64,000 nt of DNA from Tubiluchus corallicola (taxonomy: Eukaryota > Priapulida > Priapulimorpha > Priapulimorphida > Tubiluchidae): positions 1,052,066 through 1,116,065 of the forward strand of contig JAQGDQ010000011.1 in the NCBI GenBank assembly GCA_030141605.1. The letters run 5' to 3'. Shown here piece by piece: positions 13,345 to 57,462 of the stretch; within the stretch, counting starts at the first letter, position 1; every line of letters begins with the position of its first letter. Below the pieces are notes generated by a model that worked only from the letters and a program-made list of their open reading frames with translations, was not told the DNA's origin and made no database searches. Made by a program: the position numbers and the translations under genes.

Positions 13345-16300
13345 ATGGCTGAGTGCTGCGGTAGTGGAACTCCCTCAAGTACAAACAACTCTAAATTTGT
13401 TGCTAATCAAAATAAACCTGATAACGCTGAGGCAAAAAATTCTCATCATGAACATCTTGTTATTGAAATTGAGTCAGCTGAAGATGCGCTTGAGTCAATT
13501 GGGCCGTTATTTCGGTAAACTGGTTCAATAATTGTTGTCATGTTACTTTGTTAGTATGTAGCTGCACTAGGATTAGGGTTACCAAATGCTGTTCCAAAAA
13601 TTCGGTGATAAATCAACTATGGCGTCGAGGTGAGGCGGGGGGCTTCTGTCGTAAAATCCACAGCGGGGTACTTGCATTTATACTCAACAAGATTTAATCA
13701 GATAATTTAATTGGTTACTTGGACCTGTAGTTGTTGACATGATGCATGAAAGAAATGCCGAAACTGCCTGATAATCATAAAATATTAATATTTTACCGCA
13801 GGTAGACGTTACCAAAGCATCTTAAACGGCAAATAAACTGCGAATCACGCAATTGTACATCCATGTACTATGACATTAACATCGACGATACTGGAAGATT
13901 TGTTTATATTACACTGTTTTTATTTAGGATCTATACTGTGAAATCTAAATAAGTCAATTTAGCTTAAGTAATTTGCTAAGTTGTCTTGTATCCAGTTTCA
14001 TGGTTTACTAGGTTGTGATGTTTAATTCTAGCTTAAGTCGTTTGTTCATTCTTAAATCTGAGTTACTTTGCTCTGCCTCACCTCTACTACCAGGGTAATA
14101 AAAATAATGATTTCGTTTAGGGCATAGTCCATGGATAACACCTTAACTAACTCAATACTAAATTTCAAGATCATTATTATTCACATGTCACTTTGATAAA
14201 CCCGCATGCTTGCTGAAGAATCTGCAGTACTATTTTTTTAAGTATTTGGCATGACTCGCTCAGGAGTTCAATCTGCAACCCCTCAGGTGCTGGGATACAG
14301 GCAGCTGTCATTTCTCTCATATATTGTGCATAAAACGATAAATACTTAATTTCTCATCTTTAGAGATTTGACTTCAGTGGGAAGAATTTTATATTGCACT
14401 ATTAGAATATATTTTTGGCCATTAGTTTGATTTTTAATTTCAGGGCCATTTATGACGATGACGATCACAAACAGTTTATGGAAAAGTTGGACGAGAGAAT
14501 AAAGAATCATGATCGTGAAATTGAACGAATGTGCAACTATCATTATCAGGGATTTATTGACTCAATCCATGAATTACTGCAAGTTAGATCCGAAGCAGAG
14601 AGAGTGAAGGTGATGTGAGAATCTTCTGAACTTGGCATGCTAATCTTCATTGTTTGAATGCAGGCTTCTGTGGAGTGAAGATAAAATCACCATAGTACAT
14701 TAGTTCTTAGTCATCTTCTGTAGGGATGTCACAAAGTTCTGCCAGACCGAAGCTTTGGAACCAAATCCAAAGCTGAGCTTTGATTCAATTCGAATCCCAA
14801 TATGTTACTTTAGGTCCGACCCAATTCTGCAGAGATTCATAAATAAATTCGATTTAACTTCGACTGCAGTGAAAATTCAGTAGTGCTTTATTACAAAACA
14901 ATTATCCATGAGTTCTTTTACCCTGAAATTTTTTGGCAAAGTTAATTAATTCACTGTTGTTTTTTTTTGATAATTTTGTCTTATATAAGATATACTAATA
15001 TCCAGTTTCAGCGTGTGCCCGGGTTATGAAATCCTGCATGAAAGTGTGCACCACGATTTTCACTGTTAGTTCCAACAAAAATGCTAAGATTTCTTATTAT
15101 GCTTTAGCACAAGGCTGGACACAGTGTGGCTTAGATGAACTCAGTTTTTTGTCATCCGGATTTTTTACAATGAGTGCATGTAATAACACCCAAAGCCATT
15201 TGAACAAAATTTGGTTTAACGAAATATCTAAAAAATCCAGATTCTGATTTGATTCGGTTTCGAAAATTATTGTAAAATGAGATTCAGATTAAGATTCAGT
15301 AATTTCATATTCGCGACATCCTTAATCGTCTGCTTAGAATTTTTTTACTATTGCATCCTGACATGGCATACTTTGTGGAAAGAATTAAAACGTCTTTACC
15401 CTTTGACCTTTTGTGGTTGTGTCATTATCTGTCTTCCAGTTAATGAGCATTTTCCAGTTACCTTTGGTATTTGTCTTTTCAAATAATTTAATGTAATGTG
15501 CACAGTTTGTATGATTAACCACTATCTCTAAACTAAACACTCTTTGACAGTATAGGGAAATGTTTGGAGGACAATAAAAATATTTCTATTTCCACCTAAT
15601 TGCCCGGGTAATATTTTTTAGCACACACCCGGCTGGAAATTTTATAAATTTTTTGTACGTTCATATACTTACCTGACGCAGTTGTATAAAAACATATTTT
15701 TGTAATTTGCAATAAACACAAAATGCAATAATTATAACATTGTTGTTTTAACGAGGATGCAGCCATGTTTTTCTACGGCTAACTCCCTGCCCGGGATGCC
15801 GTTTTGCACGATGTTGATTAGTGTATTGGAAAGCTAAAATGTATCACATTTTCTGCCAAATCAGCATATTAACATATTATGGTAGTAGCTGCCATTCATT
15901 TGAAAATTATGACGTAACTGGTGGAATTCTCGACTTTTCATAAGCACATCATGGCTTTCAGTAAGCTCGCGCTCATTAAACTAATTCAAACGTGCGCAGC
16001 ATACGTAATGTTCATGCAAATGTATCACAAAATTTGCTATCTAATTTCTTGTAAAAACTTATTTTACTTTTGTTGGAAACTGACAGTGCGCTGCTTTGTC
16101 TAGACGATGAATAGCGTCATTAGTGGAAGAATGGGCGTTCAAAATAGGAGCGCTCAAATGTGAAGTGATCGCAATTTTTAAGTAATTTTACTAATTATAC
16201 GAGCGCTTATTGCACTTTTATAACTAAATCTTTCTAACATTTTTATCGAACATTCAAATGTTCACAGGCTAAATTCACAGAAGGCTTGGCCGTTCCTTTA

Positions 16301-19300
16301 AAATGTGTTGCTTAAGAAATTTTGTCTGGGTATTTCTAGACATATTCTTCATTTCTAATTTGATAAAAATGGTTTGGCACACAGCAAATCGGTATTCAGT
16401 ATAAACTTACGACAAACTTTAAATGTAATTGGTGGCAGGACTTGCTCACTCTAGGTCACTATCGAATAAAGTCCTGTAATGTGATGTACTGAGCTACCAA
16501 AAGTGTACAATGCATCTTATCGAATTGTGTATGATATGTGTTCTTAAGCTAAATATCAGGAAGGCAGTGTAGCAGATGAAACCGTCCACAATAAATTTCG
16601 TGATGGTTATGCATCCATGTACTAACCAGGCCCAACACTGCTTAATTTCGTTCGCTAAACACACATCGTGGCAACTAACTCCTTTCCTTCTTATGTGTTA
16701 TATATTTATTCCTGTCTGATCATTAACTGTGCTCAGTGATACAGTGATTGGTACAGTTTACATAATGTTTTTGTTGAATTTTAGGGTGAGATTAGAGATG
16801 TTAACACTAAACTGCAGCAGTCTGGATCATCTCTCATTGAAAAAGCCAGCGATGTCATATCAGCTCAGCAAGTACAGATGAACATCACTTGTACAATAGA
16901 GCGTTTGCAAATATGTCTTCCTGGTAAGTGATGTTTGCTAGAGCCCTGCAACTGCTGTATCAGAACTGTGGAACAACTCAACATGTTTTTATACATTCTG
17001 TATTTTGCAAGCTGCTAACCTAACACTTAATGAAGATGATTGTGGTAGGAACAAAACTCAATTCTAATCTTCTAAGGTGAAACACTGAATTGACATAGGA
17101 GTTTTAGCCTTGTTCACTTGTGCATTGAGTGTCCCTCAGCGAAATTCAGAACTGGGTGGGAGTATGGCAGATTTATCGATCTGCCATGCATTTACTGATC
17201 GGGCTTGATGTTGCCTAACTTTGGCTGTTGATCGTGCACTGTTACCAGCCCATCTATATCTAACGGTTAAATACATTAAGTGAAACTTTTGCACACTACC
17301 TGATGACTGTCTCTCAGTTTTGGTATTTGCTGACATTTTTGAAGCAGCGTCTGTAATGTCAATGACACAGCGATAAGCTAAAGTTGCCATAGTAAAATAA
17401 TTGAAGTAATTTATGTGACCTATGTGTTTTTATAATTTTGTAGACTCGTTTATTTTTACATTAAATGGCCCACACATTCAAACGATTGTTTAATTATCAT
17501 TTTAACTAAACTAAAGACAGGTTATGGTTTACCAAATTAAAAGAACACATGTTTACTTAATACATATTGTTATTTTTTTAGTTCTATCCATGTACGGAAA
17601 GCTCAAGGAACAGATGAAGAATAAAAGGTTTGAATTTACGTAATGTTTATCATAATTTAGAGAACAGTTGACTTCTGTGTGCTAACTGAGGGTCTGAATC
17701 ATGGAGATTAAAGAACTGTTTGTGTAGGTAAAATATTATCGCGAACCTGGGGCCGATTTCACAAAGCCATCATTATTACATTCACTTAACTATTAATAAC
17801 GATGTCGTCAGGTTAGTGATGGTTTTGTGAAATTGGGCCCTCATTTAAAATTAATCTACCCACACAACTTAAGGTGCACTGTAGTAATAAGTATATCGCT
17901 TGTGTAATATGGATGCTCTTTTTGAATGCATGATGACGTCTGTGTCCTAATTGCCTGTGTACCATGGTAGTTGTCATCTAGCTTGAAGACGGGGGGCATT
18001 TGGAAGTCACATCTGAAGTACAGTTTTGAATCTGTGAGCTTAAAGCCAGTGAGCTTAAAGCTTTGTGAATTTGGATTATCAGAGAATTTTGGAAAACAGA
18101 AATGACCTGGTGACTTTGAAGCTTCATACTGTTAATGACGAGAGAACAAACAGTTCTTGCCAGTTGAATGTCTGGATTTGAATATGAATCTGTCTGAGTT
18201 TCCTGTCGACAAATGAACGTTCAGAGAATCAGAAATAAATGCACGGCTTCGACACGAGAGAGTTCTATCAGCAACAACAAAAACTGTGCCATATTAACTC
18301 TTCTGTGCAAAAACTGTAACAATGTGTATTATCAAATATTTAGAGAATAATGGGGTGACCCAAAATACTAGTATAATACTTACATTAATAAAATTTTAAC
18401 AATGAAATTTTCAGCTGCAGCAAGTTGTCGCTTAACGACATTAATGCGTTCCAGCAAAACACGCCGTTAAGCGAAACGTCGCTAAATGAAATATTGCTTT
18501 CCCTAAGAAATAACGTAAAAGCATTCAATTGCATTCCAGGACCAAAAATCAATAGTGCTTGGCTAATTAAAAGGGATCAGTTACCTACAGCAGAACAAGA
18601 AGCATTTTCTATATAAAATCCTTCAGTAACATTGCAGGAGAAAAATCAATAAGGCTTAGCTCCTAAATTAACTAAGTAGATTGCTTACAGTTCTACATTA
18701 CGTATTCGTTTAACTAGAAAGCTAATGAGTAACTAAAGCATGAAAACTAAAATCATATTTGAAACATAGGTTCTGCCTCCTCTGGTGCTTTCTTTCAGTT
18801 ATTTTTTCTCCCTTTCTATCTCCTTTTTTCATAAAAATCATTGGTTGGCTGCTTAAATTTTTTTCTTTTACATCCACTTCCTTATAACACTGCATTGCAT
18901 TTGCTATGTCCCATCTTACTTTCGAGTTACGTTGTCTATCGTTTTCATTGTTGTGCTTGCCAGGTACAGCTAAAATGGAAATCAGGTAAATGCAGCTATT
19001 AACTGTTTAGGAGAGTTTTATCAACCAGAGGAATTTTATCTAAACGAGGGAAAACACTGAATTATGAAAACACTGAATGATTGTGATCTGCCTAGCTATG
19101 CATAAGTGCCCAGTCACCAGATGGTTTAGTATAGTGGTAATGCACCCACCTTTCGTCTGGGGGGTTGTTAGCTCGATACAGCAGCAGGATCATATCAAAT
19201 TCTTTGAAAATAGTACTTGCTGTTGCCCTACCTGCCGCAAGGTATTTTGAGTAAAAGTGGGGTAATAATAGTCTCTGTTATGTAATTGTAGATTGTTATT

Positions 19301-22300
19301 TACAGTCGGCCCAAAAGCACTTTGGAGTTTATGTTAATTGTTGATTCAAAAGGCCGACTTTAAATATAAATTTTTATTATTGTGATTTATTTATTTAGTT
19401 GGGCAAATTACTACCTGTCTACTAACCATACTGTGATCTGGGTTAAATGACGGGCTTCATTTGTAGAGTGGAAATGCAGTAAACAAGATTTAGTATACAA
19501 GATAAAGTTGTTGTTAAAATGAAGTATGCGACAGCAATTAATGCATTATTTAAGCATTGTAGCCCAATTTGTGAATTATCGACGTCATAATCTGGATATC
19601 AATATTAATTCTATGTCAGTGGCTGTTTTAAATATCTTATCATAATAATATAGTAACTAAAAGCATTACATTGAAAGAAGGTGTCACAGCACCCGGTTCT
19701 TTCAATGTAATGCTTTTAGTTACTACATAGTTTCAGTGTAACAATGTAATATTTCAAAATGGTCAAGGGTTGCAAAGGGCCACCCTTAATATTCTCGAAA
19801 GGGACTATCAGACCGTGAGAAAACTGTTGAGAAACAAATTTACACCCGTAAGTGCAAGGTTCGGCTAAAAAATGCCTTTTGGCTGCCAGACTAAAGACTA
19901 GTACATTTATGATAACAGATGTGTCTAGCAACCAACAGGGTAGTATACTCTTACACGTGCTGAATCAATTTCTTGCTGTTAATTTCTTTTGCTTGTGCGT
20001 AATGGCTTTGATTGTGTTGAAACCTCCTTTATGAGGCACAGACCTTGTGAACCCAACACCTTCATTTTTGTGCATGGTGCTAGTGAAGCAAACAAAGCTG
20101 TCTAAGCCAGTGCATACCTCTGACAAAATTTTCAAAACTAAGCTGCTCATGTGATGCTTTTGCATTGCACTTTCGCATTTTTGGCGTATTATAATAGATT
20201 GTATAATGTAATGTAGCTAAAACAACAAATTGTTTTCATACCTCATCTTTTACCTTAAATTCTCTCTTGACAATAGCATGTATGTTAATCTTTTTGTCTC
20301 ATTAATGGTTTGCTCATTGTTGTGTTTTCTTCTGCTGAAACAGTTGTAGCGAAAACAATAGATCCTATTTGAAAACGTCATAATTTTATCTTTTTTGTGT
20401 AGAATTTACCACTAATCTTCTTATCTTGTTGTAACAGTCTACATCAATGTATGTAATCACATTTTTAAGTTAATCTTTGAAAGACTGTTTTGTTTGTGGA
20501 CATATTATTGCTTTACTAGGAATGACATAGTCAATATGACAAACATTCTTATTTATAATATGTGATCCAGTTTTTACTATTCAAAACTTGTCAATATTCA
20601 CAATAATAATCTAGTTTGCTGTGTCTTATTAGTTTCTGAAAAGCATATATACTGGCTAACAGTTTTCGTTTTACTTCACGTATGTCGCCTCAACGTCGTT
20701 TTGAATGTGGAAGATACTGAAAGGAGACACACCTGGCAGTTGCTTGTTGACACAACAAATGATACACAAGATGAATATGTAATGAAATGCAGTGTCTGTT
20801 ATTTACTTTACTGATTCTCTTAATTATCAGTCAGTATGCCAGTTGCCCTCTTTTTTATATATAATTATGTGCATGGTGCATGTGTTGCAAACTTGTGAAG
20901 CATCTAAGCATCTTGTAATAAGTTGCGCTTTCCAGTCAAGTGATGTGGCAGAATACATTTTTACATCAACTGATAAAAACTGGGAATACAGAAAAACTAG
21001 GTAAAATGTCATAATTGGAAATATTTGCCTATAAGACTGCTTACTCTTTCAGAGAAATATTTTGTCCCAGAAAAGATTAGACTGAGCTAAAATAAATATA
21101 GGTGATTATGTGCCTTAATGCACATTATCGTTATGAGAAAAGAAGATTAATTGTTCATTTTAGACTGAAAAGGCAGCTTACAATAAAACAATGATGTGAT
21201 GTGCGAAAACAACCTTTTTAGTGATGCTATGACATATTGCTGAAAATGTGAAAGCGCAGTGATTGCCATTTTATCAAAGCTTTATTCTAAGCAAGGTTCA
21301 CTGTTGAAGTTTTATAAATCTCAGGATGTCATTTCTTGTAACAACTAATTCTATGGATGTTGGCAGAGAGAGCAGCACAATTGAACATAAACTTGGTCCA
21401 TCAGTTTAGTGTAACCAAACAGTAGATGACAGACATCCTGAAATGTATTTTATTAACGGATCCTTTTAAGAATTGACATTGGGAAAACTTCAAGTGTAAT
21501 AGTTTGAAGTAATAGACATTTCGGATTAAGAACATGAATATGGAAGGTTCGGCTGCTGCTAATCTATCTTTTGATAGCAGTTATAGTCTAGGCACCAGCT
21601 CATTTTTAAAAATAATAGCATCGCTTTTGCTGCTCACAGATTTTGCCATTGTCGTAGGTAACTTACTTGTATTGATGACAGTTTACAAGTGTGAAGAATT
21701 ACAGACAAGAATGAACATGCTTATTGTGTCACTAGTATGTGCTGACCTATTGGCTGGTCTGGCAATTCCTATTGAAGTTGCTGCTTTACTGAGACCGAAT
21801 GATCGACTTCAAGTTGGACTCTATAGTGGGATTTTTGCAGCTTGGGCTTGTGACACAAGTCTGTATCATCTGTATCTAATAGCCGCTGAAAGATATGTGG
21901 CAGTTGTACATCCTTTTAAATACTATTATGTGACAAAGAAACTGTTGGCAATGTTAATATTTTGTGCATGGATAACTGCATTAGCCGGATCACTTGTACT
22001 TTACTTGCTGCAAGATCCGAAACAATCAGTATTGTTCCTTAACGTGTATTTCGTTTTTTTCTTCTACATACCCGCAGTAATAATGGTAATTTTATATGTG
22101 TTGATATGGAAGACAGCCAGAAGACTTGTTCTACAGATTCATCCAGAAGATCCTCAAAGTGGTGCAACCATAAGAGAAATGAAAGCAACAAGAACCGTTG
22201 GTATAATCACAGTGGTGTTCTTCATCTGCTGGTGTCCTCTTTTGCTCTATCCATTTATATTATCATTTCTGAGAACTTGTCGGGATCATACTTGCTACTC

Positions 22301-24734
22301 ACATGAAGGCGTCATCTTGGTTTGGCTTGCTTACACGAATAGTGCACTGAATCCACTTATTTATGGAGCATCAAATAGTGCATTTAGAAAAGCATTTAAA
22401 AAGATTTTAAAATACGGTTAATCTGTGGTCATATTCTTATGTCCATTGATTTTAGTAAGTCTCTGTACTGCATAGTGCAGACCAAATTGTAGAACATTAC
22501 TCAAGAGCTAGCAAGACTAATTTGACAACTTAGAATTCAACTTGAAGAACCATAAGTTGAAATCTTCATATGCATGAATAGTTAGCAAGTGTGTGGCATA
22601 CAATACACGTGTATTTGTTAAATTATTAAAATTTAAATAACTTTCTGTTACTAGTGTGTTAATCATGTCTTTTGAAGGTTTATCAATATTGTGTGACGTT
22701 ACTAAACTTTCTGCACAGTTGTTAAAATAAATAACGCTGTTGTTGTTGTTGTTGCTGTTGCTGTTGTTGTTGCTGTTGTTCTTGTTGCTGCTGCTGCTGC
22801 TGCTACTGTTGTTGCTGTCATTGTTAGGTCCCCTGTTGTTGTTGTTGTTGCTGTTGCTGCTGCTGCTGCTGCTACTGTTGTTGCTGTCATTGTTAGGTCC
22901 CCTGACTTTCCAAGTCGTGCCGTCATGCAGTGTTCGTCGTTCGTTCACCATTTGCATTTAAGCCAGTTAAACATGAACCACTTACGGTGGCTTTGAGTTT
23001 TTTGGTATGGAGTAGCTTGGGGACAAAATCATGATCAAAGTCAAAGGTCATGGCAAGGGCATATCCAGGACAGAGGTAAACACACAGAATCTCAACAAGC
23101 ACGGTAATGATGGATCTAGTGGACTGATCTGATTCAGGTCAATGCAAGAAATTAAAGTGGGACCTCTGACCTGCTGATGACACCTATAGACAATTTTTTT
23201 TTACCCCTCTCTTTGGTGGATTCAGGAGTTAGAAGAGTTTGAGTCAGCTAATTGCGACAATCCAACAATGACAAAAGAATTTTAATCCCTCTCCCAGAGA
23301 GAGCATATATGGGATTCTGGCAATTGCAAGTATAGCGTTATAAAGGCAAGTTTTGTCCCGCAAAATGTCAAGTATATATGTTAGGCGATGGTGTAGAACT
23401 TTTGGGTAATTCCATTTAGTGACCATGTGACAAAGATATGACTGTCGAATGGGGCCAAAAACATCAACTGCGTGAAATTTGGACACGAAAATTATTTGAC
23501 CCTGTTTGACCTGGAAGCGCTGCTGGGAAATTATTTCTTTGCCTACCTTTATTGCCTATGAGAATTTGTGAACTAGTGAAAAAATGAATTAGGTCAGGTG
23601 CTAGGTAGCTGTTATAACTGTTACTATTACAATAGCATGGGCTGCTAGGTGTTGTCACAGGTGTACACAAATGCATTGTCTGGTACACTCAAGGCTTTTT
23701 CATGATCAGCATCAATCTCTTGAACTGTGAAAAGGTTTATTATAAACATTTTTCTTATTACTGTCTTTATTAATATTGCACATGATTAAAGCCGTGTTTA
23801 CTAGACGACCAATGTTATTACATATGTAATTTGCATTCTATACATAAAATCACATTATATAGTTTTTAACACACCCGGTTATCACACCTCTGTTATTGTA
23901 TTCATGTTATTGTGTATTGGAGCTTAGGGATGCAGAAAAACCTCAAACTCTCTGTAAGTGATTCTGCCAAAGGGTCTTCGGATAAAAGAGATACAAGACT
24001 ACAAAATACTATTGTATGGCGATGAAGCAGCCTTGATTAAATAATATGTATTCCATTCCACATGTCTGGTAAAATCGCAAACGTAATTTACTTTTGAGGC
24101 TATTTCACAAGTGTTTTTATGCACCCCGATTGATTAAATAACCCATACGCACAATAACACTCATACAATCTGATACTCTAGAAAATGCGGTTTAGCAGTT
24201 TGCTTGTATAAGCTTAAACATAAAACTTTATAACATTAACATTATACATAAAACTTATCACTAATTTCTTTGATTAATACTAGTTACACGAAAATCACAT
24301 GGAAATACAATTTGGCTTTGTGAATAGATAAATTAAGGGCTTCTGTATTTGCATTATTAATATATGGTTTAATAAAATCATGTACATTTAATTTATGTGA
24401 CATTTGCTATTACTGACCTCTAGTGATCCACTTCAGTATTTTAAATTAGACCAAATCATGTGTTTCGAGTATTATTAATAACAGAGATAATGCACTTATA
24501 TATTAGATGACATAAGACACTGCATAATAAAATTTACAACTCATGCAGATGTTTGGCATATGGAAAAGTACTAGGATTCATTGGTAAAAAATTAATATCT
24601 GTATGTCATGATAAGCAAAAATTACTTAATCCCCACAGTATTTTACCAATCTAGAATCTAGTCTTTATATCAAAGCTTGGTAGTCAATATACGCAGAATG
24701 ATAAGTTACCATTGTATTACATTTAAATCAGTAG

Positions 24735-24789
<55 letters not shown>

Positions 24790-27700
24790 CCACTGTGACC
24801 TGGCCCACCTGAGTTGTTAAAGAAATATTTTCTAGATAAATATTGGACATTGAATTTGGGATACTTATTCTTTGTAAATTTTATGCACATGCTTTAATTT
24901 TGGTTCCATATTCTTACTCAGTTGTATTCACATATACGCATACAAAGTTTTCCACATACCTAAAGCATCATTTGTGTTTAAGGGAACTAATAAGCTTAGA
25001 TCGTCTGCATATACCCAAATGTGCCACAGAAAACTCCAGCAATATATTACAACCTTGACCTGATATTTGCAACTGCCTAAAGTTGCAATAATGCTGAACA
25101 CAATAAGACAATAACAAGTTTTGTAATTTATACCTGCGACAGCATGTTAGCATGAAGTGAGCCGGCTATTGTACTTCAAAATATGAAAAGGACTTTGTGT
25201 ACAAGAAAGGTACAAAGATATACTGAGTTACATGAACAATTAAAAGGCTTAGTATCAATCATATGTTCAAATTTGATTCGAATGAGTTTGTTTAGTTCAA
25301 ATTCGATATGAATCTAAATTTATAGATTCGAATAATTCAGCATTTCAGCCACATACATTCTTTATCATTAAAATGTTTGAAACAGCGTGCAATTTTGCTG
25401 CAGTTTCTGTGCAGAATTTTCAACACACTAATAGTTTTCTTACTGCAGAACACAATCAAATAATACGCATAATCTTTCTTTACTAGTCTTTACTAGTGGT
25501 TCGAAAACTTGTTCGGAAATCTTTCAAACTCAATTCGAATTTGATTCGGTTTCAAAATACCAAAATTCAGTTCGATTCGAATTCAAAAATCACAAATTCG
25601 ATTTGATTCGAATTTGCCTTCTGGTAGAGTAACAGCTACAAGCCTGCAACTTGCAAAATAGCTGCAGCTAAATGGATGCGTGGAAACAACCATGTGATTT
25701 CACTGTGAAATAAACTGTCTTGCTGTATGAGATCTTGAGAAAAAGTGACAAATTTTCTGATTTGCTGACAGCAATTCCATGCATCATTTTCCTTGCATAC
25801 TCACTGTGAAATGGGCATTATTTTTATAAGTCTCCATACTGCAAAGTGCAGACTAGGTCATAGAACATTACCTACCTAATGGCTAGCAAGCCAAATTCTA
25901 CGACTAACAAGTTTGCTGTTTCTAACTTGAAGAACTATAAATTGAAATCTTCATGTGCATGAATGGTTAGTAATGTGTGGCAAACAATACACATGTATTT
26001 GTTTAATTATTAAAATTTAAATAACGAACTTTCTATCAGTAGTATGCTAATCGCGACTTCTGAAGATTTTTTGACGTTGTCAAACGTTATTAAACTTTCT
26101 GCACAGTAGCTTAAATAAATAATGTTGTTGGTGTTTTTTGGGGACCTTATCCCATCATGCAGCATCTGTCGTCTGTTCACAATTTGTGTTCAAGCCATTT
26201 GTACCTGAACCACTTTGGGTGGCCTTGAGGTTTTTGGCCTAGAGTAACTTTGAGACAGAATCATAGTCAACGTCATAGGTCATGCTGAGGGCATATCCAG
26301 AATATGGGTAACATGTAGAAACCTCAACAACTGCACAGCAATGATTGACATAGTGGACGGATATGATTCAGCTTAATGCAAGAAATTTAAGTAACCTCTC
26401 ACCTACTGACAACCCAACATAGATAAAAAGAATTTTACCCCTCTTCTTAGTGGATCAGGAGTAAAGAGTTGAGTCTGCTCAGAGCAAGAATTAGAATGAT
26501 GTGTCGCCGGTTGACAATCCAACATTGATAAAAATCGTTTAATCTCCTCTCCTAACCGGATTCTAATGGTTGCAAGTATAGCGTTATAAGGGCAGGTTTT
26601 GTCCTGCAAAATGTCAAGTGTAGTTGTTGGCGATGGGCAAGAACTTTTGGATAATTCCATTCAGTGACCGTGTGACAAAGGTAAAAATGTCAGATGTGCC
26701 AAAAACACCAGCTGCATGAAATTTGGACATGAAACCATTTTACTCGTTTGACCAGGATTGCTGCTGGGAAATTAGTTCTCTGCCTGCTTTTATTGCCTAT
26801 CAGAATTTATGAACCAAATTTGACCAAAAAGGAATGATTTTGTGTCAAACGTCAAGACGGTCTAGGTATCAAACATGAGAATCAGGGGACCTAGAGCATC
26901 ATTGATGCTCTGGTTGTTGTTGTAGTTGTTGTTGCTGGTAAGGGCTGCCTAGCAAAAATGGTTTCAATTATAAACATTGTTCTTATTATCATCATTATTA
27001 ATATTGTACCAGTTTAAAGCTACGTTTACTAGACGACCGATGCTATTGCTTATGCGATTTGCATTATAGATATAAAATCAATTTATATTATTTTTAATGC
27101 ACCCGGTTATCACACCTCCATTATTGTATTCGTGTTATTGTGTGTTGGAGCTTAGGGATGCAGAAAATCCTTTTACTTTCTGGAAGGGCTTACAGAAAAA
27201 GATCATAAAATGCTTTTGCGCATCTGTGAAAATCTAATCTGTAACTAATCACAAAGTTTGGTGATCGTAACTCATAATAAGCAGAATAAAAAGTTTCCAT
27301 TATATTACACCTAAGTAATATAATGTATTTTCACAGGTGTAGCTAAAACAATAGATCCTTTTTGAACGTCATGATTTTATCTTTTGTGTGTAGAATTTAC
27401 AATAATCTTCTTATCTCATTGTAACTGTCTACATCAATGCATGTAATCACATTTTTAAGTTAATCTTTGAAAGACTGTTTTGTTTGTGGACATATTATTG
27501 CATTACTAGGAATGACGTAGTCAATATGACAAACATTATAATATGTGATCCAGTTTTTACTATTCAAAACTTGTCAACATTCACAATAATAATCTAGTTT
27601 GCTGTGTCTTATTAGTTTCTGAAAATCATATATACTGGCTAACAGTTTTTATTATGTATGTCGCCCTAGCATTATATGTGATGTGCCAGACACTGAAAGG

Positions 27701-30700
27701 AGACCTAACTGGCAGTTATTGGCTGAAATAACTAATGATATCCAAGATGTAATGAAATGAAGTGTCTATTATATTACCTTACAGATCCTCTTAATTATCA
27801 GTCGGTATGCCAGTTGCCCTCTTTTTTATATATAATTATGTGCATGGTGCATGTGTTGCAAACTTGTGAACCATCTAAGCATCTTGAAATAAGTTGCGCC
27901 TTCCGGTCAAGTGATGTGGCAAAATACATTTTTACATCAACTGATAAAAACTAGGAATACAGAAAAACTAGATAAAATGTCATAACTGGAAATATTTGCC
28001 TATAAGACTGCTTACTCTTTCAGAGAAATATTTTGTCCCAGAAAAGATTAGACTGAGCTAAAATAAATATAGGTGATTATGTGCCTTAATGCTATGAGAA
28101 AAGAATCGTTACCATTATGAGAAAAGAAGATTAATTGTTCATTTTAGACTGAAAAGGCAGCTTACAATAAAACAATGATGTGCGAAAACAACCGTTTTAG
28201 TGACGCTGTGACATATTGCTGAAAATGTGAAAGCGCAATGATTGCCATTTCATCAAAGCTTTATTCTAAGCAAGGCTCACTGTTGAAGTTTTATAAATCT
28301 CAGGATGTCATTTCTTGTAACAAGTAATTCTATAGATGTAGGCAGAGAGAGCAGCACAAATGAACATAAACTTGCTGCATCAGTTTAGTGTAACCAAACA
28401 GTAGATGACAGACATCCTGAAATGTATTTTATTCACAGATCCTGTTAAGAATTGACATTGGGAAACTTCAAGTGTAATAGTTTGCAGTAATAGACATTTG
28501 TGATTAAGAACATGAATATGGAAAGTTTGACTGCTGCTAATCTATCTTTTGATAGCAGTTATAGTCTAGGCGCCAGCTCATTTTTAAAAATAATAGCATC
28601 ACTTTTGCTGCTCACAGATTTTGCTATTGTCGGCGGTAACTTACTTGTATTGATGACAGTTTACAAGTGTGAAGAATTACAGACAAGAATGAACATGCTT
28701 ATTGTGTCACTAGCATGTGCTGACCTATTGGCTGGTCTGGCAATTCCTATTGAAGTTACTGCTTTACTGAGACCGAATGATCGACTTCAAATTGGACTCT
28801 ATAGTGGGATTTTTGCAGCTTGGGCTTGGGACACAAGTCTGTATCATCTGTATCTAATAGCCGCTGAAAGATATATGGCAGTTGTCCATCCTTTTAAATA
28901 CTATTATGTGACAAAGAAACTGTTGGTAACGTTAATATTTTGTGCATGGATAACTGCATTAGCCGGATCACTTGTATTTCACTTGCTACAAAATCCGGAA
29001 CAATCAGAATTGTTCCTTAATGTGTATTTAGTTTTTTTCTTCTACATACCTGCAGTAATAATGGTAATTTTGTATGTGTTGATATGGAAGACAGCCAGAA
29101 GATTGGTTCTACAGATTCATCCGGAAGATCCTCAAAGTGGTACAACCATAAGAGAAATGAAAGCAACAAGAACCGTTGGTATAATCACAGTAGTGTTCTT
29201 CATCTGCTGGTGTCCTCTTTTGCTCTATCCATTTATATTATCATTTCTGAGAACTTGTTGGGATCATACTTGCTACTCAGATGAAAGCTTCATCTTGGTT
29301 TGGCTTGCTTACACTAATAGTGCACTGAATCCACTTATTTATGGAGTAGCAAATAGTGCATTTAGAAAAGCATTTAAAAAGATTTTAAAATGCGGTTAAT
29401 CTGTGGTCATATTCTTATGTCCATTGATTTTAGTAAGTCTCTGCACTGCATAGTGCAGACCAAATTGTCAAACATTACTCAAGAGCTAGCAATGCTAATT
29501 TGACAACTTACAACATTACCCAAAAGCTAGTAAGGCTAATCTGACAACTTACAATTCAACTTGAAGAACCATAAGTTGAAATCTTCATATGCATGAATAG
29601 TTAGCAAGTGTGTGGCATACAATACATGTGTATTTGTTAAATTATTAAAATTTAAATAACTTTCTGTTACTAGTGTGTTAATCATGTCTTTTGAAGGTTT
29701 ATCAATATTGTGTGACGCTACTAAACTTTCTGCACAGTTGTTAAAATAAATAACACTGTTGTTGTTGTTGTTGTTGTTGCTGGTGCTGCTGGTGCTGCTA
29801 CTGTTGTTGCTGTCATTGTTAGGTCCCCTGACTTTCCAAGTCGTGCCATCATGCAGTGTCCGTCGTTCGTTCACAATTTGTGTTTAAGGCAGTTAAACAT
29901 GAACCACTTAGGGTGGCTTTGAGTTTTTTGGTATGGAGTAGCTTGAGGACAAAATCATCATCAAAGTCAAAGGTCATGGCAAGGGCATATCCAGGACAGA
30001 GGTAAACACACAGAATCTCAACAAGCACAGTAATGATGGATCTAGTGGACTGATCTGATTAAGGTCAATGCAAGAAATTAAAGTGGCCTCTCACCTGCTG
30101 ATGACACCTATAGACAAAATTTTTTTACCCCTCTCCTTGGTGGATTCAGGAGTTAGAAGAGTTTGAGTCAGCTCTATGCGGCAATCCAACAATGACAAAA
30201 GAATTTTAACCCCCTTTCCCAGAGAGAGCGTATATCTGATTCTGACAATTGCAAGTATAGCGTTATAAAGGCAATTTTTGTGCCGCAAAATGTCAAGTAT
30301 ATATGTTAGGCGATGGTGTAGAACTTTTGGGTAATTCCATTTAGTGACCATGTGACAAAGATAAAACTGTCGAATGGGGCCAAATACATCAACTGCGTGA
30401 AATTTGGACACGAAAATTATTTGACCCTGTTTGACCTGGAAGCGCTGCTGGGAAATTATTTCTTTGCCTACCTTTATTGCCTATGAGAATTTGTGAACTA
30501 GTAAAAAATGAATTAGGTCAGGTTCTAGCTAGCTGTTATAACTGTTACTATTACAATAGCATGGGCTGCTAGGTGTTGTCAGGTGTACACAAATGCGTTG
30601 TCTGGCACACTTAAGGCTTTTTCATGATCAGCATCAATCTCTAGAACTGTGAAAAGGCTTATTATAAACATTGTTCTTAATACCGTCTTTATTAATATTG

Positions 30701-31686
30701 TACATGATTAAAGCCGTGCTTACTAGACGGCCAACGTTATTACAAATGTAATTTGCATTTTATACATAAAATCACATTATATAGTTTTTAACACACCCGG
30801 TTATCACATCTCTGTTATTGTATTCATGTTATTGTGTATTGGAGCTTAGTGATGCAGAAAAACCTCAAACTCTCTGTAAGTGATTCTGCCACGGGGTCTT
30901 CAGAAAAAAGAATACAAAATACTATTGTATGGCAATGATGTCGTCTTCTTCAAAGCATGAGTGCAATGAAGCAGCCTTGATTAAATAATATGCATTCCAT
31001 TCCACATGTCTGGTAAAATCGCTTGCGTAATTTATTCTTGAAGCTATTTCACAAGTGTTTATATGCACCCCGATTGATTAAATAACCCATACGCACAATA
31101 ACACGCAAATCTGATACTCTAGAAAATGCGGTTTAGCAGTTTGCTTGTATAAACATAAAACTTTATAACATAAACATCATACATAAAACTTATCACTAAT
31201 TTCTTTGATTAATACTAGTTACACGAAAATCACATGGAAATAAAATTTGGCTTTGTGAATAGATATATTAAGGGCTTCCGTATTTGCATTATTAATATAT
31301 GGTTTAATATAATCATGTACATTTAATTTATGTGACATTTGCTATTACTGACCTCTAGTGATCCACTTCAGTATTTTAAATTAGACCAAATCACGTGTTT
31401 CTAGTATTATTAATAACAAAGATAATGCACTTATATATTAGATGACATAAGACATTGCATAATAAAATTTGCAACTAATGCAGATGTTCGGCATAAGGAA
31501 AAACTTAAGTACTAGGATTCATTGGTAAGAAATTAATATCTGTATGCCATGGTAAGCAAAAATTACTTAATCCCAATATTCCCCACAGTATTTAACCAAT
31601 CTAGAATCTAGTCTTTATCACAAAGCTTGGCAGTCAATATAAGCAGAATGATAAGTTACCATTGTATTACATTTAAATCAGTAGAT

Positions 31687-31738
<52 letters not shown>

Positions 31739-34700
31739 CCACTGTGACCTGGCCCACCTGAGTTTTTAAAGGAATATTTTCTAGATAAGTATTTGACATT
31801 GAATTTGGGATACTTATTCTTTGTAAATTTTATGCACGTGCTTTTAATTTTGGTTCCGTATTCTTACTCCATATTATTCACATATGTGCATACAAAGTTT
31901 TCCACATATCTAAAGCATCATTTGTGTTTAAGGGAACTAATAAGCTTAGATCGTCTGCATATACCCAAATGTGCCACAGAAAACTCCAGCAATATATTAC
32001 AACCTTAACCTGATATTTGCAACTGCCTAAAGTTGCAATAATGCTGAACACAATAAGACAATAACAAATTTTGTGATTTATACCTGCGACAGCATATTAG
32101 CATGAAGTAAGCCGGCTATTGTACTTCAAAATATGAAAAGGACTTTGTGTACAAGAAAGGTGCAAAGATATACTTAGGTACATGAACAATAAAAAGGCTT
32201 AATATCAATCGAATGTGAAATTCGATTCTAATGAGTTTGTTTAGTTCAAATTCGATTCGAATCTAAACTTATAGATTTGAATAATTCAGCATTTCAGCCA
32301 CATACGATCTTTATCATTAAAATGTTTGAAACAGCATGCAATTAGTGCAATTTTGCAGTAGTTTCTGTGCAGAATTTTTAACAAACTAATAGTGGTTTTA
32401 CTGCAGAACAAAGTCAAATAATACTCATGATCTTTGTAAGACCAGTCTTTACTAGTGGTTCGAAAACTTGTTCAGAAATCTTTCAAACTCATTTCGAATT
32501 TGATTCGGATTCAAAATACCGAAATTCAGTTCGATTCGAATTCAAAAATCACAGATTTTATTTGATTCGAATTTGCTTTCTGGTAGAGAATGCTCACTAC
32601 TAATTGACAGTACGTGTAATGTGTCATTTAATTGGATTAACTTCAATGATGATTACCGACTCATCCAATGACTACAGCATAGAAAATCATCATTTTACAA
32701 GCTAATGGCATCATTAATTACCCTAATCATTTATAGTCGGCTTTTTGGTGAACATTTAACATAAGCTAGTTTTTGCCACCGACTGTAAATAACAAAATAC
32801 AACTACATAACAGAGACTACTATTGTCCCACTTTTACAACTAAATAGTTGTCCACGCCCCAAGCAGGACAACAGCAGGTACCATTTTTAAAGCCTTTGGT
32901 ATGACTGGCCGCTGTATTGAACTCATGACTCCCAAACAGAAATGTAACAGTCAGAACAACTTGTTTGTGTTGATGGCAGTTTACAAGTGCCCCAAGGGCA
33001 TGATATTGAAACCATAGCACATGCATCATTTCTTGGCCAGCTGAGATCAGATTCAACAAATCCATTCCACTGGCATTCCTTTCAAAACTCGAAGAAATCG
33101 CAAGCTTCAAAACTGATTTTCAGAATGTGGAGCATGGGGACACTTCTTATGCTAAACAATGCCGATAGGCTAGAACAATGTACAGTGCTTCTCTCCACGG
33201 AACAAATGAATGTCGACTTCGCATGCCTTGAATGAAACCAGTCTCTCAAGGGAAGAGAAATTTGAGGAGAATACCTCTGGATATATTATTTTGAGAAAGA
33301 ACAGAACAAAAAAGAATAAGTGAAGGAGTTAGTTTGCCATCAAATTCAATATCATTCCTGACTATTAGTTACCATTCATAACCATCAAAGGAATGCATGA
33401 TAACCCGGATCAGATTATTCTGTAGGCTAGGATTATCCACAGGCTGCAGCTTGGAGCCCTTCAAGCTTTGTTAACACTTGACAAAAAAAATCTGTTTTTT
33501 CACTATGGTTGTGTTGAAATATGTGCTAATTTTTGTTCTCAGCATTGTGCACTGTAAAGTCTTTTATTGTTTTTAATGCATCAAATTTCCTGTGTACATT
33601 TGCATTAATTTGTTAAATGGCAATAGATTGGATCATTATAGGTATTATAAGGACATTTCTTCTGTAATAAAAAGTCTTTTTTGTTTAATGGTGCCACTAC
33701 CAGTCTGCTAGAACATGTCTCAGAAATTTCCGCAGTCTGTGAGTCATGTTCATCATCAAAAATGGTACTTTCTTTCATTTGCAATGGTTACTGATACATT
33801 TTACATATGGATTATGACCTTTTCGGGCCCTTAGGTTAATGAAATGATAGGGCCTCCTCAAATGGAACCACCTTCTGACTCGCGTGGACCCGTCTTGTAT
33901 ATTTTTTACTCCAGATATATTTTTCGACATTTACATAACTTGAAATAAACTTATTGCAAATTCTTCAAATAAACTAGAATAGTTTTTTCTGTCAGTAAAA
34001 ATATTGTTTAAGAAATACCACTGTTTTACTATTTATGCTAACCAAATTAGCACATATTTTAACACAACCATAGTGAAAAATCGATTTTTTAACCAATGTT
34101 ACCAAAGCTTGAAGGCCTCCAAGCTTAAGGGTCCCCGGGCCACAGCCTATACTAGCCCATATGATAATCCCGCCCTGTATACTTCACAGTGCCAATCAGT
34201 CATGATTTCATTACACATCTACATTGTAAAGTGTGATATGGAAGTTTTTCCAGAAAACAAAAACAGATTATTGATGTATTTCTCAAGCAAACAGCGAAAT
34301 CCTGTGTGCAGATTTTATTGTATAGTAACATGATATGTCTAAAACGTGTTTTTCGCCTTTTAAAATCCCAAAGCTAGTACATAGCTGCTCAAAACATCAT
34401 TTTTACTTTGATACCCAAAGGACGTAATTTATTGTTAACTCGGTCAACCCGGTACCTTAATGCAACAATTGTCTAAAAATCTGTATTGTTTGTCTGTGTG
34501 CATCTTTAGCTGTTTAGTAGTTAGAGCATTAAGACAAATGCACTAGGCCTATTATAGTCATTCACATTTGGACGTTTAACAATCAATTCCCATTTTAGTT
34601 AAAGGTATTAAACGTCTTGAAATCTATGATAAAACAAATTTGAAGCAGAAATAGACGTTAATACTGAGCACATTAAATGATCGAATTTGCATCAGAGCAT

Positions 34701-37700
34701 TATCACAAATTAAAGCTAGCTTTTGAAAAGAGCACCGTGTTTTCAAGACATGTCAGTGATGAGCTTAATGTCAAATTATATTTCGCAATGCCTTTAGTAA
34801 TTCGAATGAATGGATAATTTTCCTTTTGCTGCGAGAATAATGTGAAGTTCGGTGCACAGTGTTAGGCTCTATCTGCATATTGAAAGACTGCAGAAAGATT
34901 TTGTATCTAATTTGTGTAGATACATAAAACTTTCATCTTGAAGACTAACAATGGAATATTTAAATGCAGAAACTTCGACAATGATTACCAATTCAAGTTA
35001 TTACCATAATGTAGAAGGATATTCATTTTATAATGTAATGGCATCATTATTCATGCTGTCAGAAGTTGCTCTTATCGGAGACAACTTGCTTGTGTTGATG
35101 GCAATCTACAAGTGTGAAGAATTACAAACAAGAATGAACATGCTTATTGTGTTACTAGCGATTGCTGACCTACTGCGGAGTTTGGTGTACAACGCACGGC
35201 AAAAAAGTTCGTTTCTAATTTCAAGCTTGAAGTTGAAATTGATATTGTTGATTTTTAACTACTAACACAATTTTATTATATAATATGATAACTGCAAAAC
35301 ATAAGTCTTTCACAAGCTACTAACAGCACTACTAAGCTAACTAAATACAATAGTAATGTTTTATAAATCGAGATGGCTGCTAGGTGTGACCATTATGGTC
35401 TTTGCCATCCCGTCTCAATGCAATTATAATTAACAGTGTGTAATTAAATAGTATATAAGCATATGGAATAAGACAAATAAACTAGACCGATATTGACAAA
35501 GATTAGTTTTATTTTCGCTGCATTACCATAAGAATTAATTTTAATATTAAGTAATATATAAGACAACATTGTAGTCGGAATTAGTTTTTCAAGCAACTGA
35601 CTAATGTACTGTGATTTTGTCAGCAATACAGGGGTTTACTGAAAATACATGGCACATTATACATGAACAAAGCTGTCTCTTTCATTTACTGAATTTATTA
35701 CAAGTCTTTGACATGCACTCATACACAATGAATTAATCTTGTGCTGTGGCCATTTGTTTATTTATAATGCCTGAAATTGTGCTTAATCTACCATTATGAG
35801 ACAGAGCATTCTAGTTAGTATGTTTAATCTGTTGAAACATATCTTTCAGTTTTCCATATTTGTGTGAATAAGTTTAATGATTACTGAATGAAAATGTAAC
35901 ATATGAAAAGAGCATTAATGTACAAGAACAAAGAGAAGAAATTCAAAGAAAATATGCTAAGATATTCCAACAATGATAAGCTTAATGTGACATTAACTAA
36001 AATTTAATGTAGAGATTTATGTACCTATACTACTTACCATTGTTTGAGCAAGAGCAGAGAAGAAAGTAAAGATAAGGCTGTTGCAAGACAAGGTTGTGCG
36101 GAGTTTGGTGTACAATGCAAGCCAGAAAAGTTCATTTCTAATTTTAAGTTTAAAGTTGAAATTGAAATTGAATAATACCAATAATAGAGTATTCAAATGA
36201 AGGAATTTCAACAATGATTACAAATTCAACTTATAACTATACTATAAAAGATCATTCGTTTTACAAGCTAATAGCATCATTGTTCATGCTGTCAGAATGT
36301 GCCATTATCGGAGGCAATTTGCTTGTGTTGATAGCAGTTTACAAATGTGAAGAATTACAGGCAAGAATGAATTTTCTCATTGTGTCACTAGCATTTGCTG
36401 ACCTATTGGCTGGACTGGCAATTCCTATTGAAGTCACTGTTTTATTGCTACCCGATTATTCCAGAATTAGGCTGATTCTTGAATGGTGTGTAAATCTTCT
36501 TTCCGACTGTAGCTGGATTGCGAGTGTGTATCATCTATATCTGATATCCATTGAGAGATATTTGGCTGTCGTGCATCCTTTTAAGTACTATATATACATA
36601 ACAAAGAGAGCTCTTGTTATTACAATAACTGCTGCTTGGATTAGTGCTCTTACTGGATCTGTTTTAATACATGTAATAAGTTTAATTAATTATATTAATT
36701 TAATTAATACATTTAATACTAGAGCCGGAAGAAGTGGAAATATATTTCAATTTTAGTTTGAATACTAGAGCTGGAAGAAGTGGAAATATATTTCAATTTT
36801 AGTTTGATTGTGTTTTTCTACATACCTACAATAGTAATGGTAATTCTGTATGGATTAATGTGGAAAACTGCTAGACAGCAAGTATTACGCATACACTCCA
36901 GCCGTGGTGAGCATAGTGCAACCATAAGAGAAATGAAGGCGACAAGGACTGTAGGTGCAGTAACAGAGACTTTTCTTGTTCTTTGGTGTCCATTCATGCT
37001 TTTGCCATATATGGGGAAAATTCCTAGCCATTGCTTGCTGGCACCCAGATGCTTTCCGCATTATGGTTTAATTTTCATTTGGCTTGCTTACACTAACAGT
37101 GCAATGAATCCACTTATTTATGCTGCATCAAGTAATGCTTTTAGAAAAGCATTTAAAAAACTTTTGAAATGCTGAAGTTGGTAGGCCGTGTTAGAGTGGT
37201 CAAAACCAATCTTGTTCAGGGACATATTATGCTTCATGCTTCCATTTCAGAATTACGTCCCGGGAGTCTCTCAATGTTACCTCGTGCTAATCACCAGTTA
37301 TTTCTAAAATGTGGGTATGTGTATCCTTGCGTGTGCTTTATTACATGATACCCAGTTGAAAATATGACAGGAGACCAATTTCAAGAAGTCTGGAAAAGAC
37401 ATACCATACCAATAATGCCAGATAATCGGCATTTCTATTTGATTGTTTTGCCTGCTACTTGATTAACTGAGTATTGATTTTCGTTATTTAATGAATCTTA
37501 TATGTGTTGACTTCCGTTGTACTTTAATTATTAATTATTACGTTAACTTTAAATGGGCCACACTTAAGCCAAAATCCACGTAAGTGACATGATAGTGGCT
37601 TACATACTCCTTTTTCAAAACCTCTTTTCAGTCTCTTTTGTCTTCTCCCAGACCAGCCAGTTCCTTACTGAGGCTAACTCTAAGCTCTTCCGTACTCGAC

Positions 37701-40700
37701 AAGCCATTTTCTCTCTTCAATAGCTTTATGCAATTTGCGACCTCAGGACCCCGATGTCTGATGTCTACACCAAACCTCTTTCTCTTTTTGAAATAGCTGC
37801 TACCGTCTGCAAGCTCCTTTCAGCTCGAATCTCTGACAGGATTTGCATTACTGCAAAAATATTGAAGGCACCTCTGAAACCCTCTCTCCCCGGCTTTCTC
37901 TCATTAACAGATTGATTAGGTCTTGCGTCTCTGTTCCTAACGATTGACATTGTTGCCTTATCACCTCTTTTTGTAAAAACAAAGGAGCTGTGGTAAGAAG
38001 TGCTTTCAGGAGCCTGGCAAAGGTCTGCTGCAACAAAGACTGACTGACTCCCGAACTACATCTTTTCCAACATTTGTGGGCTGTCAGTCATTGCAGTGAG
38101 ATGTAGATCCAAGCTGTGAACTCCCTCTGATACCCGGCCTCCTTTCATCAAAGTCGCCTGTGTGTGTTATGCTTGACATCTTCTGGTTTCATTTCGCCAC
38201 CAACAGAGACCTGTACCAACGTCGTGCAACATAACACTAGTGACCACCGAGTGCTTCTCATGTCTCCTTGGCCAAGAGGAGTGTCTGGGTGAATTCATCC
38301 TAGCCAGACAAGTTGTCTCTGTTGCCTTCCGTTCTCTTCCTTCAACTGGTTCTCTCCTTAGGTCACTCTCCTCTCAACTGCTTCCAACAGTGCTATACTG
38401 TCTTCTTTGCTGCCTCCTTGTGAATATTGTGAATACGCTAAACCCACTTCATCCCTAAGTATAAGCCCCCAGTTAATGATATGGTGGCAGGGTTTCTTTA
38501 AACACTATTTTATTCATCACTTTTCAATTTAAAGCAAAACCGGACCCAATCTTAAACTGTAGGTCAAAACAATATACTCCTTAAAATATTGAACAGGAAC
38601 ACACTATTTTTTCAAAAATGACTTACTAAAACTAGGCATGTTTTAAGATAAAAATTCAAATTTCAAATTTACTGCTGTGCTCACTCATGAGCTGTCAAAC
38701 GTGCATAGTTCGTCAGAAACTAACACAGCTGAACTGAGAGGTACATTACCTGTTTTTGTATAATGCGTTTCTGAAACATGTGCAATTATTTACTTTAATT
38801 TTTTTGCCACTATATAAAATCACACTTGTTCGAAATTAAATTAATATTATTATGACTCGTTGATTTACTTAAAAAATTGCAAATAATATGGACAATTTTG
38901 TACATTTTTATCCTGCTCAAAGTTTTCTGTATATTATTAACTCAAGGCTTTTAATAGATTTGACATCTGCAAGTATATGGAAATGTAGATACACGTAATT
39001 TATTGTATGATTCGATTTACCTTTGTGGTTTGCAAATCATTTTTGCAATGTTTTAAAACAAACTATTTTGTTTTGATTACCAATTATTTGTTTTGATATA
39101 TATACAAGTATCTTTAATTTGTAGATATTACCCAGCTCTAAAGACTCTTGAACAGCTAGAACACACGTATCTTCCTCGGGTCAGCGAATATCGGTTTACC
39201 AAACTTATGTATGATCAAATACCTAAGTTACGAGAGAACATAAAGAATGCTTCCATGTCAGACCTAAAGGATTTCTTGGAGAGCATTAGAAAATATTCCA
39301 GCAAAATCGGGGAAGTCGCCATGCGTCATGTAAGCTTTGTTAAATTTCTTTGAACGCCTATAACAGCATTAATTTCGAGTGAGTTCACTTAAGTTTAGAT
39401 GCTTGACTAGTTTGCTTAAGTGTACAGCAGCATTAAGCTGGAGTGTGTTAACTTAAATTTAGATGTTTGACCGGTTTGCACAAAGTCTTAGCAGAGCTTT
39501 CACCTTTGTCTTCAGAGATAGAATATTTAATCAACTTTGACTCCCCAGATAGAATAGAATTGATTCAATGAAATTTTGTTCGCAACTGAAAATTGTTTTG
39601 AGAAAACTGCCTGAAAGTCACTATTTCTTCAGACGAGTCTTAATCTGATGAACATCAGCTTTATGTGTGCATAGGGCACGAGCTTAGTTGATAGACTTAA
39701 ATGATGTGCAGTTACTTGTATAAGGCTGCTGTCTGTTGTACTACATGTATATATAAGTTAGTGACCAAGCACACTTATTTTGGTAATGAATATTCTTGCT
39801 AAACTTAATAAAGGGTGTTCTTAATCCAATTTAGTGATGTTGCTAGTTATTTAATATCAAACTAAATAATTTCAGGCAGCTGAACAGCACAGCATAGATC
39901 CAGGTCTGGTTAAAATGGTCCGACGAAAACGCAAAGCTCCACCTCCACCTAATCCGTTTACTGGCGAAGTGCCAAGTCAGTCAGATCCTGAACCGGATTT
40001 ATACGACGACCAAGACGAGGAATTGAGTGCTCAAGATCTAGTTGACTTTAGTCCAGTGTACCGCTGCTGGCATATATACACTGTACTTGTAAGTAGACAT
40101 TTTGCTGGCTAAGTGGTCTAACGCTTTTGAGTTTGAGATTGCTTAACTGGTTTGAAATTACTCTCATTTGATCTTTATCACTGTAGGTACAGTATGTCCT
40201 GCTTAAATAGTAAATATTTGATATAAATAACTCGTAATTAGGATTACTTCCTGTCAAATTCTTCCCTCATCACTTGGTTTTCTGATTAAATTAAAATAAG
40301 TGTTTTTGCTACTTCATACTTCTTCACAAAAGTGATATAGAGATGATCAGAGATGAGAATAGGTGTGTGTTTAGCAAGTTATATTTAAGCACTTTCACCA
40401 ATATCATCTTTATCGCCTTATTTCAAAATTAGTTTTATTTTGTGTGGTATGATTAAAAGAATAACAGCAATCTTTTCTGCAAGTTTTGCGCACGGTTTTG
40501 GCTATTGACATTTTACAACCTTTATAATAACTCTTTTGCCAATAGAGGACAGCGCCACTGTTTATTTTCACTAGTCAGATATTTGAAGTGTGCCTGGCTT
40601 TTGCAGGTATCATTGCTACTGGCATACACATCAATTAATTGCCATATTAAACATGACAGTAAAGTCTCATCATACTTTCCAGTCAGAATACCATTTTATG

Positions 40701-57150: not shown

Positions 57151-57462
57151 TAGGGGTAAGCATTGAATGTTCGAGTTTGATTTGAACAAATTTTTTTCAT
57201 TTGAATTCGCCACTTCAGCTATATACGTTCTTTATAATTAAAACATTTGAAACATCATACAGTCAACACAATTTAACTGCGATTTCTCTGCACAATTTTT
57301 TAACTAATTATTGGTGTTTTACTGCATAGTAAACTCAAGTAATACGCATGATTTTTGTAAGACCGCCTTTAAAACTGAATTTGAATTCCAAATCTTGAAA
57401 TTCAGTTTGATGTGAGTTCGAAAAACAAAAATTCAATTTCTGATAGAAAATGCTCACCCCTA
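57151..57462. mobile_element. hAT-like MITE, 312 bp
   Basis: The left end TAGGGGTAAGCATT and right end AATGCTCACCCCTA are inverted repeats with one mismatch. The TAGGGGTGAGCA form resembles hAT-superfamily ends. The 8-bp flanks CCCACCAG and CTCATCAG agree at 6 of 8 positions, compatible with a decayed 8-bp target duplication. The body has ATTCGA-type motifs and no ORF. Confidence 0.65.

Follow-up and report, generated by a model that had tools for sequence, protein, structure and literature searches.

EXOC6 (Sec15) of the priapulid Tubiluchus corallicola carries a cluster of receptor genes in one of its introns. We analysed a stretch of 64,000 nucleotides around it (assembly GCA_030141605.1, contig JAQGDQ010000011.1, positions 1,052,066 to 1,116,065, forward strand), called the window below, whose own numbering is used throughout. 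Intron 4 contains five intronless copies of a class A (rhodopsin-like) G protein-coupled receptor (GPCR) gene, all on the EXOC6 sense strand. We put at roughly 0.7 the probability that the two intact copies, R1 and R2, are ordinary nested, self-contained members of a large class A family, each a single-exon receptor gene spliced over by EXOC6. The array looks like an outlying part of a large family of receptors in this genome. Intron 4 owes its size to the duplication, in place, of a 5.3-kb receptor unit next to older copies. Intronic receptor genes have been described in other animals, and the arrangement itself is not new.

Host gene and receptor array

The features of the locus, all on the forward strand, are as follows:

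13345..51931 (+): EXOC6/Sec15 host gene, coding exons 1-18 (GT/AG chaining, homology)
17628..39124 (+): EXOC6 intron 4, 21,497 bp (donor AAG/GTTTGA, acceptor TTTGTAG/A)
20340..25629 (+): receptor unit copy 1 (1.2 kb 5' flank, R1, 3.2 kb 3' flank), from alignment to copy 2
21534..22421 (+): R1, intact single-exon class A receptor, 295 aa (7tm_1 E 2.1e-41)
22726..22731 (+): AATAAA, 305 bp after the R1 stop, with a GT-rich tract behind it; aligned counterparts at 26114 and 29745 and in the C1453 copy (one AATAAA there)
25816..27186 (+): older 3'-flank copy, receptor body missing (74-83% to units 1 and 2)
27333..32588 (+): receptor unit copy 2, holding R2, from alignment to copy 1
28512..29399 (+): R2, intact single-exon class A receptor, 295 aa (7tm_1 E 2.4e-40)
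29745..29750 (+): AATAAA, 346 bp after the R2 stop, with a GT-rich tail; aligned with 22726
about 32602..32990 (+): R5, decayed fragments of the N-terminus and first transmembrane (TM1) region (blastn to R4 start E 1.1e-12)
34941..35184 (+): R3, receptor 5' part up to TM2, broken off (7tm_1 23.6 bits, below the 30.5 cut-off)
36172..37175 (+): R4, full-length receptor, split (both pieces pass the 7tm_1 cut-off)

The 18 coding exons of EXOC6 were chained from open frames via GT/AG junctions; the edge between exons 15 and 16, at about 48872/49053, was set automatically and is doubtful. The spliced product is homologous to Sec15 of Drosophila (2a2f, E 1.3e-88) and of yeast (5yfp, E 2e-17), and since the yeast alignment crosses the exon 4/5 junction, spanning residues on either side of intron 4, exons 4 and 5 belong to one protein. 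The preliminary description had placed a nested receptor cluster in an intron 4 of about 21.5 kb, and this holds: exons 4 and 5 of a spliced Sec15-like product flank R1 and R2, and the intron measures 21,497 bp. The other 16 EXOC6 introns measured run from 180 to 2,175 bp, with a median of about 735 bp (by hand). EXOC6 turned up once in the 343.5-Mb assembly, all 16 of its matches falling in the window, on contig C2110, and none on a second contig.

The array (20340-37175) occupies 16.8 of the 21.5 kb of the intron. Its make-up agrees with the two intact, two broken and one fragmentary copies first proposed: R1 and R2 are open and 91% identical, R3 and R4 are broken, and R5 survives in fragments; the sense-strand placement likewise stands for five of the five. 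The break in R4 is a 46-bp tandem duplication at 36715-36807, and it looks recent because the copies of the duplication are 97% alike. R5 is split by a repeat of about 220 bp at 32729-32945, whose other copy (19148-19365) is inverted and 74% alike.

Growth of the intron by duplication

Units 1 and 2 are 94.73% identical over 5,143 aligned bases and differ by 26 indels, none of them coding. They have in common 1.2 kb of non-coding 5' flank and 3.2 kb of non-coding 3' flank. Because these flanks were copied along with the receptor gene, the duplication occurred at the DNA level, not by retrocopying. A recent retrogene origin of R1 and R2 was rejected, as both flanks are shared, including with R6, a relative on contig C1453; its 5' flank is 80.3% identical to those of the intron units over 732 aligned bases, and several 3' blocks are shared as well. 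This rejection concerns recent origin only, an older retrocopy origin of the whole family being outside its scope. Intron 4 is long because the receptor array grew inside it, and tandem receptor duplication is one route to ballooning introns.

The two units could instead be two haplotypes of one unit, joined in tandem by the assembler. They differ by 5.3%, and blocks of 2.0-3.5 kb that are 92-97% identical recur in the receptor arrays of contigs C1312, C1073 and C2053, as either uncollapsed haplotypes or recent segmental duplications, so that similar uncollapsed haplotypes may exist. Against such a joining, the 1.7 kb between units 1 and 2 is a copy of neither outer flank and holds the older paralogous 3' flank, and EXOC6 is present once, on one contig. 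We regard this artefact as unlikely.

An interspersed element of up to about 370 bp marks the 3' end of both receptor units (25276-25629 and 32225-32596). It recurs at 57169-57371 and 62479-62840, the unit copies being 70-75% like the distant ones.

Transcription and poly(A)-type signals

If R1 and R2 are ordinary nested genes, the receptors would have landed in or grown inside intron 4 by segmental duplication of DNA. Each intact copy would start at its own promoter in the duplicated 1.2 kb 5' flank and would end roughly 0.3 kb past its stop, at the aligned AATAAA; the EXOC6 pre-mRNA would be transcribed through the array, with the 21.5 kb spliced out. The functions of EXOC6 and of the receptors would then be unrelated.

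The putative terminal AATAAA is aligned in four 3' flanks, those of R1, R2, the old flank copy (26114) and R6. The sites at 22726 and 29745 lie close to 22.7 and 29.7 kb, the places where the preliminary description proposed to look for EXOC6 transcript ends. ATTAAA (22625, 26009, 29644) is likewise aligned in the three 3' flanks of the window, so AATAAA is not the sole candidate signal. Sense-strand counts in intron 4 are at chance for both hexamers (AATAAA, 20 versus 22.1 expected; ATTAAA, 22 versus 23.5), and the receptor-linked AATAAA are therefore marked by position and context only. Of the 20 AATAAA on the sense strand of the intron, the three beside receptor-unit 3' flanks are followed by the most GT-rich sequence (GT fraction 0.90, 0.88 and 0.65; at most 0.62 for the other 17).

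A CTG/TTG repeat lies just after the AATAAA in both units (22736-22904 and 29756-29839) and is the source of the GT-rich tail. It also yields long, probably spurious antisense open reading frames (ORFs) rich in Asn and Ser.

The preliminary description suggested that receptor expression might be coupled to EXOC6, or that receptor poly(A) signals might truncate EXOC6; both are possible. In the second case receptor transcription would cut EXOC6 short in intron 4 and leave a product of about 173 residues encoded by exons 1-4 (521 coding bases, by hand). The shared strand and the AATAAA aligned between copies are consistent with this, and there are precedents. Mouse Mcts2 runs in the same direction as its host H13. 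Like the array it lies in the fourth intron of the host, and its transcription is described as driving intronic polyadenylation of the host (available part of PMC13309782). Unlike R1 and R2, it is described there as having arisen by retrotransposition and as having an imprinted CpG-island promoter, and it is no receptor; the 5' flanks of R1 and R2 are CpG-poor (observed/expected 0.42 and 0.35). For 158 human protein-coding nested genes, the part of PMC3192792 available reports 53 as tandemly arranged, 31 after re-evaluation, with seven of the 31 and two more on chromosome 18 predicted to interfere with their hosts. Besides the CpG-poor 5' flanks, the chance-level counts of AATAAA and ATTAAA speak against interference, and EXOC6 would hardly be affected if the receptors were expressed in few cells. 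We consider such interference improbable. The stronger form, in which cells that switch on R1 or R2 end EXOC6 early, make the Sec15 N-terminal piece of about 173 residues and change their secretion, is less probable still by about half; if true, it would link receptor choice and exocytosis by genome layout.

The locus offers a clean natural example of receptor genes nested on the same strand within a trafficking gene, with two near-equal copies, each followed by an aligned poly(A)-type signal. It could be used to test how well terminators within an intron are tolerated by the host gene.

The receptor family in the genome

Counts from the genome searches are lower bounds. A search of the genome with R1 gave at least 133 scored matches, out of 903 first-look candidates, on 34 contigs (contigs counted by hand). 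These comprise R1 and R2 themselves and 131 matches on other contigs, 20 of them on C1770 and 20 on C2114. Thirteen contigs carry at least three matches each and together hold about 104 of the 133 (by hand), in tandem arrays; the R1 family thus has the many single-exon paralogues in tandem of an expanded chemoreceptor-type array. A 7tm_1 search gave at least 164 matches (147 of 1,297 candidates scored). A lack of homologous receptors elsewhere, which the preliminary description had named as grounds for doubting the cluster, is contradicted by the 131 matches, and homologues are found beyond this genome too, as solved adrenergic, dopamine, serotonin and histamine receptors match R1.

Nearest among the matches listed are R6 (78% to R1, 80% to R2) and R7 on contig C1822 (64% to R1), the rest being at most 47% identical. 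R6 and R7 are open frames on contigs without an EXOC6 match. This bears on the possibility that receptor expression requires transcription of EXOC6 or uses enhancers in common with it. The orientation is the same as that of the host, and co-regulation has been suggested for the vertebrate pair Gpr52/Rabgap1l (available part of PMC4372774). Against this, since R6, R7 and nearly all other scored matches lie on other contigs, the receptor family does not need EXOC6; and exon 4, joined to the AG just before the R1 start, runs into a stop (by hand, for that one join). We give host-coupled expression a slightly lower chance than interference.

The 18 genome stretches that were fetched contained 29 further full-length ORFs similar to R1. 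The family alignment took ORFs of at least 250 aa with BLAST E at most 1e-20, and 31 of 39 proteins were kept, R1 and R2 included. In an early tree of the 31 members with the R3 and R4 pieces, the window receptors formed one clade. With R6 and R7 added, the smallest group holding R4, R1 and R2 also takes in R7 and R6. A single arrival in intron 4 followed by local growth only was dropped, since the window receptors are then no clade. As to the direction of movement among the EXOC6, C1453 and C1822 loci, the tree allows both arrival in and departure from the intron.

An open frame about 3 kb from R6 has weak matches to DOMON and cytochrome b561, both under their cut-offs. Two receptor pairs at C2311:60125-78549 are mirrored with identical scores, as in an inverted duplication or an assembly palindrome.

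Receptor class

R1 and R2 are class A receptors by their 7tm_1 match and core motifs. In x.50 residue numbering, N1.50, D2.50, R3.50, W4.50, P6.50, N7.49, P7.50 and Y7.53 are present in 31 of 31 aligned members and P5.50 in 24 of 31. The best solved relatives of R1 are aminergic receptors; nevertheless, Asp3.32 is found in none of the 31 members (Glu in three), and the disulfide between Cys3.25 and extracellular loop 2 (ECL2) has no counterpart, with Cys at the aligned 3.25 position in none of the 31 and a short ECL2. An amine receptor label was rejected, the amine-binding Asp3.32 being absent. Because this residue is missing despite the aminergic best solved relatives, we call the family orphan and probably chemosensory.

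Two further groups were compared. Some MECA receptors (melanocortin, EDG, cannabinoid, adenosine) likewise have no Cys3.25; in our comparison with this group, by motif and best solved match, Cys3.25 is absent from the family and the best solved relatives are the aminergic ones. The motif LxxPxYxxxxxLxxxDxxxxxxxxP is given for echinoderm olfactory receptor (OR)-like proteins in the part of PMC7042368 available. R1, the one member compared with it (by hand), departs from this motif: L56, L67 and D71 fit, R59 and N61 replace P and Y, and the final P is shifted by one residue.

An AlphaFold model of R1 (five-row alignment) has seven helices in order, with a mean pLDDT of 44, too weak for a fold search.

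Coding constraint

Codon comparisons with R6, the 78-80% identical relative, show purifying selection on R1 and R2: omega (dN/dS) is 0.33 (0.21-0.47) for R1/R6 and 0.28 (0.18-0.40) for R2/R6. When R6 serves as the outgroup, R1 is assigned 13 amino-acid changes and R2 six, with seven unclear. In a neutral simulation of the R1/R2 pair, 5.4 indels were expected from the flanks in 888 coding bases, versus none observed (P 0.004). For R4, omega is 0.41 from the first piece to R1, 0.37 from the first piece to R2 and 0.23 from the second piece to R1, at dS of 0.8-1.4.

Several points weigh against reading R1 and R2 as ordinary, working chemosensory genes that end at the aligned signal. R1 and R2 compared only with each other give an omega of 0.65 (0.34-1.45), which is not distinctly lower than 1 and is uninformative. 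The absence of stops is weak evidence by the neutral simulation (P 0.11), and the 26 amino-acid differences between R1 and R2 are not clearly fewer than the neutral mean of 33.0 (P 0.11). The GT-rich measure was a post hoc choice, and the tract consists of a trinucleotide repeat. In the R6 flank the stop is followed first by a different AATAAA, at 705 bp, and then, beyond an insertion, by the aligned one at 1,312 bp. The chemosensory label is drawn from family architecture only.

That all copies, R1 and R2 included, are out of use is unlikely, given the low omega to R6, the lack of coding indels and the core motifs kept, although three of the five copies are broken and the range of the R1/R2 omega takes in 1.

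Comparison with known nested receptors

The human genes P2RY12, P2RY13, GPR82 and CXCR6 encode class A receptors. P2RY12 and P2RY13 are nested in MED12L, GPR82 in CASK and CXCR6 in FYCO1, as the receptors here are in EXOC6, MED12L too having more than one; unlike the EXOC6 array, these are different-strand pairs, and the available part of the source describes no fresh tandem with broken copies (PMC3933685). Closer in layout is Gpr52 in an intron of vertebrate Rabgap1l, like R1 and R2 a single-exon class A receptor in the same orientation as its host, but it is one receptor with no array, and host and receptor are reported there to be functionally linked (available part of PMC4372774). A literature search for nested genes, intron, GPCR and same strand jointly found nothing, which says little, as the Gpr52 case surfaced otherwise.

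The R1 family resembles the echinoderm 'surreal-GPCR' and OR-like receptors, expanded rhodopsin-like tandem arrays that are mostly single-exon in sea cucumber (available parts of PMC7042368 and PMC5442662). The likeness is one of description, and R1 differs in the OR motif. The word 'intron' is absent from the main texts of these two papers.

Other features of the window

Three antisense ORFs in the array (22517-22957, 23244-23555 and 30091-30480) have no Pfam match, the first being largely the trinucleotide repeat read backwards. Rfam at gathering thresholds and ARAGORN found nothing over the window. Upstream of EXOC6 and opposite to it, on the minus strand, lie CDC23/APC8-like exons (1789-10408); four pieces were scanned, of which one had no match, one matched TPR and two matched ANAPC8 (one below cut-off). 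Outside the chained model, further terminal EXOC6 exons probably lie at about 54.5 and 55.2 kb (by eye from open frames). Over the whole window (1-64000) observed/expected is 0.55 for CpG and 1.31 for TpG, as in a methylated genome.

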